Below, piece after piece: positions 7,951-47,298 of a stretch of DNA of 47,380 bases. The first letter of the stretch is position 1; every line of letters starts with the position of its first letter. The position numbers and the translations under genes are program-made. This stretch comes from Thermoanaerobaculia bacterium (GTDB taxonomy: Bacteria > Acidobacteriota > Thermoanaerobaculia > Gp7-AA8), in NCBI GenBank assembly GCA_017883235.1, contig JADGNY010000044.1, forward strand, positions 1 to 47,380. The letters run 5' to 3'. A model generated the notes under the pieces. It made no database searches. It had not been told where the DNA came from and worked only from the letters and a program-made list of their open reading frames with translations.

Positions 7951-8403
7951 ATGACACGGTTCCTGGCCCTTTTCCTTCTGGTCGCGACGCCGGCGCTCGC
8001 CTCGGACATCACCCGAGCGTCGGTCGTCGCGGCCATGAATGAGTACCGCGCGGAGCACCACCTCCCACTCCTGCGCGAGGATTTGCGTCTCGATGCCGCC
8101 GCTAACGACCGGATGCGCGACATGGAAGATCAGGGCTACTGGGCTCACGAATCTCCCGACGGCCGCTCGCCCTTCACCTGGCTCGCGCCGCACGAATACG
8201 ACTTCCACTACGCCGGTGAAAACCTCGCCTCCGGCTTCGAGACCACCGAGCTGCTGGTAGCCGGCTGGATGGAGTCGCCCGGCCACCGCGACAACATCCT
8301 TTCGCCGCATTTCGAAGATTGCGGCATCGCCATCATCGACGGAATGACGATGCGGCGCGGGACGGGGAAATCGATCGTGGTGATGTTCGGGGCCACGCGC
8401 TAG
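7951..8403 (+). CDS. Secreted CAP (SCP-like) domain protein
   Basis: This 150-aa protein has a signal peptide (about 1-17, ending ALA) followed directly by a CAP domain. The family signatures are AMNEYRAEHHLPLL, H in YWAHESPDGRSPF, AGENLASG and SPGHRDNILSPHF, which supply the two His and the acidic residues of the CAP cavity. Bacterial members are extracellular and of mostly unknown role. The 3' 155 bp of this gene are duplicated at 9616-9770, on the far side of an apparent insertion. A strong terminator follows the stop codon. Confidence 0.9.
   Translation: MTRFLALFLLVATPALASDITRASVVAAMNEYRAEHHLPLLREDLRLDAAANDRMRDMEDQGYWAHESPDGRSPFTWLAPHEYDFHYAGENLASGFETTELLVAGWMESPGHRDNILSPHFEDCGIAIIDGMTMRRGTGKSIVVMFGATR
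8245..8399 (+). repeat. 155-bp direct repeat, copy 1 (CAP gene 3' end)
   Basis: This segment matches 9616-9770 almost base for base, with differences mainly near the 5' edge (CTGGTAG versus GTCTTTG) and a few substitutions. Together the two copies bracket 8400-9615. Confidence 0.88.
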
Positions 8404-9615: not shown

Positions 9616-9770
9616 ACCGAGCTGGTCTTTGCCGGCTGGATGGAGTCGCCCGGCCACCGCGACAACATCCTTTCGCCGCATTTCGAAGATTGCGGCATCG
9701 CCATCATCGACGGGATGCCGATGCGGCGCGGGACGGGGAAGTCGATCGTGGTGATGTTCGGGGAGACGCG
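9616..9770 (+). pseudogene. CAP-domain gene fragment (155-bp direct repeat, copy 2)
   Basis: The segment encodes, without a start codon, the last fifty or so residues of the CAP protein, including GWMESPGHRDNILSPHF. It is a second copy of 8245-8399. It lies against the 3' end of the MoeB-like gene on the opposite strand. Confidence 0.85.
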
Positions 9771-36617: not shown

Positions 36618-36638
36618 GTCCGCATTCTCACACTCATG

Positions 36639-37015
36639 CGGTGACGGTCCAATTTGATGCGGTATCGATCCAATCTGGAGCGGCATCGATCCAATTTGAT
36701 GGGGTATCGATCCGATTTGATGCGGTATCGATCCAATCTGATGCGGCATCGATCCAATTTGATGCGGTATCGATCCGATTTGATGCGGCATCGATCCAAT
36801 TTGATGCGGCATCGATCCAATTTGGTGCGGTATCGATCCAATTTGATGCGGCATCGATCCAAGTTGGATGCGGTATCGATCCGATCTGATGCGGCATCGA
36901 TCCGATTTGATGCGGTATCGATCCAATTTGATCCGATTTCGAACCAATCTGATGCGGTATCGATCCAATTTGGAGCGGCATCGGTCCAATTTGATGCGAT
37001 TTCGGGCCCCAATTT
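36639..37015. repeat. 21-bp tandem array, about 18 units
   Basis: The consensus is GCGGYATCGATCCAATTTGAT, each unit 21 bp except one of 22, with GCGGTATCGATCC and GCGGCATCGATCC forms interspersed. Every unit carries a palindromic ATCGAT core or a variant of it. Frames stay open on both strands (IGSMPHQ or MRYRSNL heptads) because 21 is divisible by three, so openness is not evidence for a protein. The array is bracketed by blocks A and B. Confidence 0.92.
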
Positions 37016-38803: not shown

Positions 38804-38845
38804 TGGCCGAGCCTTGGGCAACCAACGCCGCCGGCCGTGCCGGCC
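38804..38845 (+). repeat. 42-bp palindromic repeat, copy 1
   Basis: TGGCCGAGCCTTGGGCAACC followed by AACGC(C/T)GCCGGCCGTGCCGGCC. It matches 41144-41185 with one difference; weaker similarity extends about 30 bp further upstream. The stop codon of the M28 peptidase gene lies at its edge. Confidence 0.85.
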
Positions 38846-41143: not shown

Positions 41144-41185
41144 TGGCCGAGCCTTGGGCAACCAACGCTGCCGGCCGTGCCGGCC
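41144..41185 (+). repeat. 42-bp palindromic repeat, copy 2
   Basis: Nearly identical to 38804-38845 and in the same orientation. The GCCGGCCGTGCCGGC core is a near-palindrome, as in REP elements. Confidence 0.85.
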
Positions 41186-42798: not shown

Positions 42799-42812
42799 AA
42801 GTGCAGGCGGTC

Positions 42813-42818
42813 TACAAT
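42813..42818 (+). promoter_or_regulatory. -10-like box TACAAT next to start codon
   Basis: TACAAT ends 6 nt before ATG 42825. There is no Shine-Dalgarno sequence between them. Confidence 0.5.
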
Positions 42819-42824
42819 CCCCGT

Positions 42825-44102
42825 ATGCGACACGCGGCCTTTCCGGACGGGGTTACGCGCGACCGGTTGATCGACTGGTATCGCGGCGGCGGGAAAATTA
42901 CCCGGCAGCTCTTCACCATTCCGGCCGCTGATGCCTATTTCGACCGACCTATCCGCCTGCGCAATCCGATCGTTTTTTATGAGGGTCACATTCCCGCGTT
43001 CGCGGTCAACACGCTGATCAAGCTGGCGCTGAAACGTGGCGGTATCGACGGCGCGTTCGAGACCCTCTTCGCCCGCGGCATCGATCCCGAGAGCGAAGAG
43101 GCAGCGAAGACGCCGACCGATTTCTGGCCCGCGCGCGAGGACATTCAGGCGTACGGGCGCGACGCTGACGATCTGATCGTCCGTGCCATGTGCGACGGTC
43201 CGATCGACGACGGCCTCGAACCGCAGAGACGCAACGCCGAGGCGGCGTTCACGATCATCGAGCACGAGCAGATGCACCAGGAGACATTGCTCTACCTGTT
43301 TCACGAACTGCCGTACGAACGGAAGAATCCGATCGCGCCGATTCGCGCGGGCGGGTCGCTGCCGCGTGGCAACGTCATCAAGGACATGGTTCGCATTCCG
43401 GCCGGTGAGGCCACTCTCGGTGCGCCCGGCGCCGACTTCGGATGGGACAACGAGCTTCCGGAGATGCGCATCGACGTCGATGCGTTTTCCATCGACCGGC
43501 ACGACGTTACGAACGGTGACTATCTCGAGTTCATCACCGCGACGAACAGAACGCCGCCGCACTTCTGGGCCGAGTGCAACGGCGCGTGGCAATGGCGCGG
43601 CATGTTCGCGCTCGCTTCGCTGCCGCTGGACGCGCCGGTCTACGTGACCCACGACGAGGCCGATGCCTACGCGGCATGGCGCGGCAAACGACTGCCGTCC
43701 GAGAGCGAGTATCACCGCGCGGCGTTCGGTTCGCCGGCAGGTGAGGAGCGCCGCTTTCCGTGGGGGGATGCGTTTCCCGATCAGAGGCGCGGCAATTTCG
43801 GATTCACGCACTGGGATCCGGTACCGATCGGCTCGTATCCCGCCGGCGCCAGCGCCTGGGGCGTCGAAGACCTCATCGGCAACGGGTGGGAGTGGACGTC
43901 GACCGTCTTCGACGGCTTCCCCGGCTTTGTTCCGATGTCGTCGTATCCTCTGTACTCCGCTGACTTCTTCGACGGCAAGCACTACGTGATGAAGGGGGCG
44001 TCGCCGGCCACGGCTCCCGAGCTCATCCGCCGCAGCTTCCGAAATTGGTTCCGTCCCGGCTATCCCTACGTCTACGCCACGTTCCGCTGCGCGAAGGATT
44101 AG
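42825..44102 (+). CDS. EgtB-like non-haem iron enzyme (DinB_2 plus FGE-sulfatase domain)
   Basis: This 425-aa protein has an N-terminal DinB-like helical domain with the three-histidine iron site expected of EgtB-type sulfoxide synthases: H55 in EGHIPAF and H147/H151 in HEQMHQE. A formylglycine-generating-enzyme-like domain follows (about 185-425) with MVRIPAGEATLGA, FSIDRHDVTNGDYLEF, KRLPSESEYHRAAF, GNGWEWTSTVF and the C-terminal SFRNWFRPGYPYVYATFRCA. EgtB joins a thiol to trimethylhistidine in ergothioneine synthesis; OvoA- and SenA-type enzymes are relatives. No EgtD methyltransferase is in the window, so the substrate is open. GTG 42801 is an alternative start, but TACAAT 6 nt before ATG 42825 favours the latter. 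Confidence 0.83.
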   Translation: MRHAAFPDGVTRDRLIDWYRGGGKITRQLFTIPAADAYFDRPIRLRNPIVFYEGHIPAFAVNTLIKLALKRGGIDGAFETLFARGIDPESEEAAKTPTDFWPAREDIQAYGRDADDLIVRAMCDGPIDDGLEPQRRNAEAAFTIIEHEQMHQETLLYLFHELPYERKNPIAPIRAGGSLPRGNVIKDMVRIPAGEATLGAPGADFGWDNELPEMRIDVDAFSIDRHDVTNGDYLEFITATNRTPPHFWAECNGAWQWRGMFALASLPLDAPVYVTHDEADAYAAWRGKRLPSESEYHRAAFGSPAGEERRFPWGDAFPDQRRGNFGFTHWDPVPIGSYPAGASAWGVEDLIGNGWEWTSTVFDGFPGFVPMSSYPLYSADFFDGKHYVMKGASPATAPELIRRSFRNWFRPGYPYVYATFRCAKD

Positions 44103-44155
44103 ATGGGTAGGGTTTTGCTCCGCCGGATCACTCCTAGAAAGGAGGTTCCTCGAGC

Positions 44156-44251
44156 ATGCCCGGATTCTGTCTACCTGTCGAAAAATGTCGGCGTGGGTAT
44201 GACTGCATCGACCTGTCATTGGCAGATCAGAGGAATCATGAATTGGTTTGA
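44156..44251 (+). CDS. Possible 31-aa Cys-containing leader peptide
   Basis: A short frame with AAAGGAGG (44138-44145) 10 nt before its ATG encodes a hydrophilic peptide with three cysteines (C5, C11, C17). CTCCT at 44131-44135 could pair with the ribosome-binding site. It overlaps the start of the TPR membrane protein in another frame. It could be an upstream peptide coupled to that gene, or chance. Confidence 0.25.
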   Translation: MPGFCLPVEKCRRGYDCIDLSLADQRNHELV

Positions 44252-46023
44252 TGTCGCCGCCGCCGTCTTCGGTGCTATCGGTGCGGTAGCAGGAATACTA
44301 ATTAATTAATCTTCACCCCACGAAGGGCCAACGAGCACGGCACCCATTCCTGAAACGACTCGATGGCAAGCAAGTCCTGCTCGGTTCAATCGCCGTCGTG
44401 TCGTTCGCCTGTGCGGTAACATTCGGCCTAACTGGCCGATGGCGTTCGCTGCCACGTACCGAGCAAAGCGAAACACCGACGGGTCTGCTGGTATCGCGCG
44501 CGACTACTGCTGGGTTCGAAGCGGACTTACGCCGGAAGGTTAGCGGACGAGCAGATGAAGCACGGGACTATTTTGCGGCTGGAGAACATGACTTTACTGC
44601 TGGTCGGTACGGGCAGGCCGCAGTAAACTACGAGCAATCGATCGCAGCTGTGCCGACGATTCCCGCGAACATTAATCTGGGAGTGTCGCTCGAGTTCACC
44701 TCAAAGTACCCAGCTGCTGTTGCCGCCTTGCAGGCGGCACTGCACTTGCTCGATCCGAATCAGGACCGCGAGTACGAAGCTGTCATCTTTACCGCCTTGG
44801 CCTTCGTCTACGATGTCCAGGGTTCACGCGATGACGCACTGAATATGGCAACGAAGGCTCTCGAGGCGGCAAGGGCGACGAAAGACCAGATCCTGATCGC
44901 CAATGCATTGGTGGTGTTGGGTCGGATCCAGGACGCACGAGGCAAACCGACGGATTCGGCCCGGACGCTCACGATGGCGCTGGAGGTGTACCGCTCGCGA
45001 GGTAGCAGGGAGGGCGAGGCCTCAGCGCTCAACAATCTTGGGTCCGCGTTGATTGATTTGGGTAGATTGACTGAGGCACTGAAGACTTATCAAGACGCCG
45101 AGGCCATATACCAACGGCTGCACTACCCGATGGGTCGGATGAGTGCTCTTACCAATATCGGAAACGCTTACGCCGACAAGGGCGACTTCGGGAAAGCGCT
45201 AGCAGCCTATGAACAGGCGCGCGTTCTAGCGCGGGAGATTGGTAGTCTTAGAGGGGAGGCAGACGCTTTGCAGGATATCGGCGAGGTAGAACGCCAGCAA
45301 AGTCACCTAGCGGACGCGATCGTCCACGCAGCGGCCGCCCTTGAGATATTTCGGCAACTCGGTATCCCAAATGGGCAAGCGAGCGCTCTGATTACCCTGG
45401 GTAACGCCCACTTCATGAAAGGGGATTACCAGGCTGCGCTGGAAGACTTCAACAGGGCCGCGGAGTTCTTTCGGCAGTCTGGCGATCCTCTCGGTGAAAA
45501 CGACGCGATAGGCAATGCGGCAGAAGTTCTGCGCGAATGGAAACGATTTGACGAATCATTAACGATGGCAAACAAGGCTCTCTCAGGATTCACTACGATT
45601 GGCAATCTCCAGGGGCAAGCAAACACTTACCTCAACATCGGAAGCACCTATATCACGATTAAGCGCTATCCCGAGGCTCTAGAGGCGTTCACGACGGCGC
45701 TAGAAATCGCTAGGCGCTCTGGCGATCGTGCCCGGCAGGCGACTGCTATCGCCGGGCAAGGCGAGGTCCTTCTCGATACGCATCACTTGGTCGAGTCCGT
45801 GGCAAAGTCGCAGGCAGCGCTCGTTATGTTTCAGTCGTTGAAGGATCCCAACGGTGAAGCCGCAGTTCTTGCCGATCTTGGTTTCGCACATGAACAGCAG
45901 GGCAACAGGTCCGACGCGTTGCGCGAGTTGACGCGCTCGCTGGAACTATACCAGGCCAACGGTATCGCAGCCTCGCAGGGAACAGAGATCCAGCAAGCAA
46001 TCGGCAGGCTACGTAAGCGTTGA
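44238..46023 (+). pseudogene. TPR membrane protein split by a 4-bp (TAAT) frameshift
   Basis: ATG 44238, with AGAGGA just upstream, opens a 23-codon hydrophobic peptide (WFDVAAAVFGAIGAVAG) that ends at TAA 44307. The next frame is open from 44305, has no usual start until GTG 44398, and continues through a second helix (VLLGSIAVVSFACAVTFGL) into at least ten TPR repeats (about 44580-46010). The break falls in (TAAT)3 at 44299-44310; removing one unit fuses both parts into a 594-codon frame. The intact protein would be a membrane-anchored TPR scaffold (units such as ALNNLGSALIDLGRLTEALKT, in short NNLGSAL-LGRLTEAL). Without restoration, translation could start at GTG 44398. Base composition is lower in GC than the neighbours, suggesting transfer. 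Confidence 0.75.
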
Positions 46024-46203
46024 CCTTGGAAGTTCGAAGGTTTGGCGCTCTGGCTCGTGGAGGTGTAGCAGGCGACGCGCGCACTCGTGGAACGCCGCTC
46101 CCCATGCGACCGCCGCCCGAGACTCATCCGCCGTTGCCGCAGGGCTGTCCCTACCTCCACGCCCCGTCCCGCCCTGCGCACGATTCATGCACTCACGTCC
46201 CAT

Positions 46204-46833
46204 ATGCAAAACGAAAGCTACAAACCCAAGACCTTCGACCTCTCCAGTCTGACAGGGATCTCCGACCAGACGCTGGAGATGCACTTCAAGCTCTACGAGG
46301 GGTATGTCACCAACACCAATCTCCTCACCGAGAAGATCTCGGAAATCCTTGCCGATGGCAAGGTGGACAAGGAGGAGGTGCCTGCCTACTCCGAGCTCAC
46401 CCGCCGTCTCGGATTCGAATACAACGGGATGGTCCTGCACGAGCACTACTTCGGCAACATGAAGCGCGGCGGGGGCGGGGAACCCGCGAAGAATGCCGGC
46501 TTCCGCTCTGCCGTCGAACGAAGCTTCCCGACCTTCGACATTTGGAAGACGGACTTCACCAGCGTCGGCAAGATGCGTGGAGTGGGCTGGGCCATCGCCT
46601 ATCTCGATCCCTCGAACGGCCGCGTCTCGAATCACTGGATCGAGTTGCACGAGAACGGCAACGTCGCCGGCTTCGTCCCGCTGCTGGTGATGGACGTGTG
46701 GGAGCACGCCTACCTTCTCGATTACAAGCCGGCCGACCGTCCGAAATACATCGAGGCCTTCCTGGCCAATGTTGATTGGGATGTGGTCGAGCGGAGGATG
46801 AAGGTTTGGGATGTGATCAGGCGCGCGGCGTAG
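46204..46833 (+). CDS. Fe/Mn superoxide dismutase
   Basis: This 209-aa enzyme converts superoxide to peroxide and oxygen. Metal ligands are in place: H27 (MHFKLYEGYV), H81 (LHEHYFGN), D164 and H168 (DVWEHAYLLDY). The sequence is divergent from the standard pattern (HHxxY is MHFKLY, and the usual GGH/Q motif reads GNM), so metal choice is uncertain, with Fe slightly favoured. ATG 46204 matches the usual start of similarity; the upstream open frame is not family-like. There is no signal peptide, so it is cytoplasmic. Confidence 0.9.
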   Translation: MQNESYKPKTFDLSSLTGISDQTLEMHFKLYEGYVTNTNLLTEKISEILADGKVDKEEVPAYSELTRRLGFEYNGMVLHEHYFGNMKRGGGGEPAKNAGFRSAVERSFPTFDIWKTDFTSVGKMRGVGWAIAYLDPSNGRVSNHWIELHENGNVAGFVPLLVMDVWEHAYLLDYKPADRPKYIEAFLANVDWDVVERRMKVWDVIRRAA

Positions 46834-46849: not shown

Positions 46850-47245
46850 GCAGCGCGCAGGATCTCCGGTGGCACCGCGCTGCACTTCACGACTTGCGGG
46901 CAGCAGGTAACGTCTTCATCCTGCGGCGAAGCGCGCAGGATCTCCGGTGGCACCGCGCGGCCCCTTCACGACATGCGGGTAGGTGCTCGCCGTTTAGAAA
47001 CATACGATCGCGCGGGATGACCGGAGATCCTGCGCGCTTCGCCGCAGGATTGGTGCGTAATCGATCTCCGGTGGCACCGCGCTGCACTTCACGACTTGCG
47101 GGCAGGTACGGCTCGCCGTTTAGAAGATAAACAATCGCGCGGGATGACCGGAGATCCTGCGCGCTTCGCCGCAGGATTGGTGCGTAATCGATCTCCGGTG
47201 CACCGCGCTGCACTTCACGACTTGCGGGCAGGTACGGCTCGCCGT
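46850..47245. repeat. Compound repeat array with ATCCTGCGG palindromes
   Basis: A unit with CTCCGGTGGCACCGCG and CACTTCACGACTTGCGGGCA occurs four times (spacing about 80, 123 and 126 bp). ATCCTGCGGCGAAGCGCGCA (46917-46936) occurs inverted at 47031-47050 and again near 47152-47176. GTTTAGAA and CGCGCGGGATGACCGGAGAT segments repeat in the later units. No gene is visible in 46834-47380. Confidence 0.85.
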
Positions 47246-47298
47246 TTAGCCCGCATTTCTCACACTCTCACTTGAATCGTGGACACTCTGTTACTCGT

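Follow-up and report, generated by a model that had tools for sequence, protein, structure and literature searches.

Does a short tandem repeat that interrupts the start of a TPR membrane protein gene act as a switch, or does it mark the place where the gene lost its frame? This question is raised by a locus near the end of a 47,380-nucleotide stretch of DNA from a Thermoanaerobaculia bacterium (contig JADGNY010000044.1; hereafter the window), whose genome is a draft of 246 contigs. All positions given are window positions, and the features of the gene and of its flanks are on the + strand.

The reading frame is split at a TAAT tract

As the sequence-only reading of the window had described, ATG 44238, which has a Shine-Dalgarno-like AGAGGA just 5' of it (44229–44234, by direct reading), opens a piece of 23 codons and a TAA stop (44238–44309). 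This piece encodes the hydrophobic peptide MNWFDVAAAVFGAIGAVAGILIN, predicted to be a first membrane helix (hydropathy 2.19 over residues 4–22), and is terminated by TAA 44307–44309 inside TAATTAATTAAT, the (TAAT)3 sequence at 44299–44310, which places a TAA in each frame (at 44299, 44303, and 44307). The main frame, encoding a charged loop, a second helix, and the TPR domain, has its final upstream stop at 44299–44301 and is then open from 44302 to 46020 (573 codons and a stop, 44302–46023). The only positions at which neither frame is closed are 44302–44306, which places the change of frame within the tract.

Direct reading also confirmed that the main frame contains no ATG, GTG, or TTG before GTG 44398–44400, its earliest usual start codon. 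A start at this GTG does cut the predicted second membrane helix (44374–44430; hydropathy 2.27), as had been claimed: the codon lies within the helix, and translation from it yields a protein without any segment above the hydropathy threshold. A separate 31-codon ORF (44156–44251; MPGFCLPVEK...), with a strong AAAGGAGG 5' of it and codon log-odds of ∼0, overlaps ATG 44238 out of frame. A scan of 44050–46250 returned no promoters or terminators.

Evidence for one original gene

A relative in which both parts are read in one frame is present in G002, a MAG of the same genus as the window genome (Thermoanaerobaculia bacterium Chersky.9_17; JADGNZ010000063.1). It is a protein of 357 amino acids, encoded from an ATG in a single unbroken frame, in which the loop TRYQRKRYPWLCWLDGRQ joins two helices (the second with a 19-residue hydropathy maximum of 1.60) and a TPR part follows. 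The relative thus shares with the window the ATG start and the succession of helix, charged loop (R..P.L..LDG.QV), helix, and TPR but differs in its unbroken frame, its shorter TPR part, and its genome position, where it sits between a 291-codon and a 277-codon ORF; ∼2.4 kb upstream is an ORF that resembles an IS transposase.

The loop and the beginning of the second helix, TKGQRARHPFLKRLDGKQVLLGSI (44320–44391), are kept in the relative and share a common origin with it: alignment of 44311–44397 with its first 75 residues gave a score of 61, compared with 32 for the best of 2000 shuffles (the main-frame protein from 44320 onward reads TKGQRARHPFLK). Because this match lies upstream of GTG 44398, the protein originally reached 5' of that codon, and with conservation extending upstream to ∼44320, GTG 44398 was rejected as the original start. 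The proposal that the two pieces can be joined as one gene, with the break in the TAAT tract, is therefore borne out by a relative that is one frame and whose loop matches 5' of the GTG. In the read-through window protein 40 residues precede LDG, and in the relative 42; ATG 44238, in the other frame, yields almost the length of the relative.

The N-terminal helix, on the other hand, is matched by layout only. The score of the 23-residue peptide against the first helix of the relative was reached by 742 of 2000 shuffles, a similarity no better than composition, and a sequence match between the two was rejected. The place of the peptide in the gene accordingly rests on its length, hydropathy, start codon, and position. 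When codon log-odds were computed with the TPR part of the gene as the training set, frame 0 was favored before the tract (+17.9 versus −10.4 and −17.9) and frame 1 beyond it (+0.7 versus −11.2 and −8.4); the test is weak because at 44398–44500, inside the training stretch, the true frame (−1.5) was not separated from another (−0.7).

Wider searches left the G002 protein as the one relative that covers the N-terminal part, at ∼30–35% identity. When the N-terminal 154 read-through residues were compared with 148 genomes of the class, three genomes matched: the window genome itself, in which no second copy of the N-terminal part was found, G002 (query residues 26–150, E = 7e-11), and a third with 45 TPR residues only. 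The reciprocal search from the G002 relative returned the window locus, from 44311. A two-row profile matched 22 of 396 genomes of the phylum, and the 20 matches besides the window genome and G002 start at a model position of at least 66. At the DNA level, 44100–44700 matched two of 60 genomes: the window genome itself and one that shares a stretch of 32 bases. No match was obtained in phage records, in viral contigs, or in a contig search with the window frame; the plasmid search returned 133 records, every one below 60% identity, and the 15 matches listed carry TPR or CHAT-domain annotations. Neither the 60 genomes, the viral contigs, nor the contig search yielded a second strain of the species. 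Overall, the comparisons support well the view that the 23-residue start peptide and the main frame formerly belonged to one gene. Programmed frameshifting was rejected because the frame of the G002 relative is unbroken.

A TPR protein with a predicted membrane anchor

The TPR superhelix (44707–46020) matched Pfam TPR_12 (6.1e-69) at 228.7 bits, compared with a curated cut-off of 30.1, which identifies the product as a TPR protein. AlphaFold2, run on the read-through sequence alone (mean pLDDT 73.3), modeled residues 158–594 confidently as a TPR superhelix; residues 1–157 were below 50 pLDDT, with low-confidence helices at 3–25 and at 43–70, the latter corresponding to the second membrane helix. 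Neither Pfam nor the PDB gave more than generic TPR matches, and the solved structures matched are natural and designed TPR proteins. A TPR superhelix is likewise common to GPSM2/Pins and kinesin light chain (TPR_12-type, by sequence), a likeness of generic repeats that implies no common partner or function. Thirteen NCBIfam models matched the main frame, each below its cut-off, and when five proteins were scanned against a defense library, the window protein matched a generic TPR model and a neighbor of the G002 relative matched HEC-09 weakly. Under the positive-inside rule, the charged loop between the two helices would place the TPR part outside the cytoplasm, and the joined product is probably a membrane-anchored scaffold.

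The gene lies in an insert between conserved neighbors

The TPR gene lies within a 2.1-kb insert that separates an EgtB-like enzyme gene with an FGE-sulfatase domain (42801–44102) from an Fe/Mn superoxide dismutase gene (46204–46833). The insert is missing in relatives, where the two genes adjoin: in 14 of the 19 loci examined in other genomes they are at most ∼210 nt apart, and the remaining five have no superoxide dismutase match within the stretch examined. The TPR gene has a G+C content of 57%, compared with 64% for the EgtB-like gene.

At its far edge the insert carries a decayed second copy of the EgtB-like 3' end (46073–46192), so that it is flanked by two copies of this end. Compared with G001, the relic gave a local score of 46 (shuffle maximum 30; reached at 0 of 1000 window places). 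Over its 120 nt there are 14 gaps, and 98 of the 114 aligned bases agree; the working EgtB-like end had 172 of 202 aligned bases identical and 2 gaps. One indel in the TPR frame against 14 gaps in the neighboring relic argues that the TPR frame stayed open once the insert was in place. Should the relic be as old as the insertion, there would have been time for many indels, and the TPR gene would have remained open until recently or would still be used. The sequence GCGCACGATTAGTGCAC, the end seen in G001, is also found in G002, where it lies 3' of another EgtB end, a hint that such events have recurred at the site.

Origin of the frame break

We favor, as the probable though by no means certain history, a recent loss-of-frame allele, fixed or segregating, rather than an evolved contingency switch. 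The locus would have been one gene, encoding helix 1, a positively charged loop, helix 2, and a long TPR superhelix. The break in its frame, within the TAAT tract, would be recent, and the simplest mechanism is that replication duplicated a 4-nt unit in tandem. As a result, the good start at ATG 44238 would now yield the hydrophobic peptide of 23 residues, whereas the TPR part would be unmade or, starting weakly at an internal site, would be poorly made and lack helix 1. The nature of the event, its recency, and its effect on the product are inferred. No other stop interrupts the 573 codons of the main frame, so that signs of further decay are missing; this is consistent with a recent break, of which decay is not required, and also with a gene that is still expressed or with a sequence error.

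An error of sequencing or assembly in the draft genome, behind which the true gene would be intact, is unlikely but is the most probable of the alternatives. The 246 contigs of the draft and the otherwise clean main frame speak for it; a clean extra 4-nt unit, however, is atypical of short-read consensus errors. In what the GeneTack paper says of singletons, frame breaks with a joined product supported by BLASTp are expected to be mostly sequencing errors (PMC3711429), which also counts in favor of an error. The singleton classes described there (pseudogene, hypothetical pseudogene, and error) resemble the window case in being single, in having a homologue-supported joined product, and in a break that is not conserved; the window differs in that its break happens to fall in a short tandem tract (PMC3711429). 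By the criteria set out there, the window case would be classed as a singleton frame break, that is, a pseudogene or an error (PMC3711429).

It is quite improbable that the gene is split but expressed. In that case translation of the TPR protein would begin, perhaps through translational coupling, at a nonstandard codon (ATT 44305 or CTG 44350), and the 23-residue piece would be a leader or separate subunit. Such an arrangement would fit the absence of further decay in the main frame; ATT 44305 overlaps TAA 44307 of the short frame, and initiation at CTG 44350 would place KRLDGK ahead of an entire hydrophobic helix, as is normal for a signal anchor. Against it, the G002 relative manages with an ATG and one frame, and no Shine-Dalgarno-like sequence was seen, by reading, immediately 5' of 44350 or 44398.

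Is the TAAT tract a switch?

The frame changes precisely within a tandem repeat, the unit is not divisible by three, and the repeat stands close to the 5' end of a gene for a membrane protein, where contingency tracts are usually located. The sequence-only reading had named the locus a candidate switch, in which slipped-strand mispairing would toggle between two and three TAAT units and so turn the protein on and off. The tract itself does not support this proposal. Some tetranucleotide was repeated three times in 138 of 200 first-order Markov copies of the window (mean 1.71 starts; the real window has one), and thus, unlike an SSR contingency locus, the tract is no longer than chance would make it. 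TRF, at its lowest score of 30, returned 62 rows for the window and none for (TAAT)3. The sequence occurs once in the 6.92-Mb assembly, a count for which the reversed pattern, being identical, is an uninformative control. The frame break is real; the repeat alone is unremarkable.

Repeats of other kinds are found elsewhere in the window: ∼17 copies of the 21-nt unit ATGCGGTATCGATCCAATTTG at 36636–36998 (TRF score 507); a 127-nt unit, palindrome-like in places, in 2.5 copies at 46939–47249, directly 3' of the superoxide dismutase gene; 2.4–2.7 copies of a 147-nt unit at 2320–2717; the 25-mer TGGCCGAGCCTTGGGCAACCAACGC at 38804–38828 and again at 41144–41168; and long exact repeats shared by 8260–8392 and 9631–9763, ∼1.37 kb apart, likely a local gene duplication.

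A second objection to a switch lies in the unit. With a TAA every 4 nt, all three frames are closed from three copies up (a stop in every frame was found for n = 3, 4, and 6), so that added TAAT units cannot reopen the gene and the single possible on state is a tract of 8 nt. Units of CAAT, AGTC, GCAA, GACA, and CCAA leave all frames open; a contingency unit leaves its gene readable at recurring copy numbers, which TAAT does not. The eight in-ORF tetranucleotide units listed for Haemophilus influenzae (CAAT, GACA, CCAA, AGCC, AGTC, TTTA, GCAA, and CAAA) hold no stop, AGCC, TTTA, and CAAA being judged by reading rather than computed (PMC2651432). The same source gives three units as the maximum chance length of H. 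influenzae tetranucleotides, lists copy numbers of mostly 4–51, and reports ATTA, of the repeat class of TAAT, in nine copies 225 bp upstream of mutM (PMC2651432). Like the lic, mod, and hgp loci described there, the window tract has a tetranucleotide unit close to a gene's 5' end, but it differs in having three copies only and a unit that closes all three frames (PMC2651432). One literature search pairing Thermoanaerobaculia with phase variation found no paper.

We therefore consider the phase-variable switch very unlikely, although a slow polymorphism of two and three copies is possible. The sequence-only reading had itself cautioned that three units are short and that a fixed mutation was equally possible; the shortness agrees with the chance-level tract, but the odds fall well short of equal, a loss-of-frame allele being probable and a switch very unlikely. 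Least probable of all is that the pieces were never one gene and that a chance hydrophobic ORF precedes a TPR gene, for which the missing significant similarity of the 23-residue peptide to the relative could be cited, against a conserved loop that starts a few codons past the tract and requires an upstream start, and a length and layout that agree with the G002 relative.

One variant deserves mention, small as its chances are. The tract may be a one-sided fuse, the whole membrane TPR protein being made at one short copy number. Gain of a unit would close all frames and leave nothing or, via the AUU overlapping the stop, the TPR protein minus its first helix and with altered topology, and the population would hold two protein forms. 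Taken alone, little hangs on this locus. A simple check nonetheless separates contingency candidates from accidents: a unit that puts a stop in every frame cannot be an expandable coding tract. A fuse of this kind, should it exist, would be a switch that is on at one copy number only and that also changes the membrane topology of its protein.
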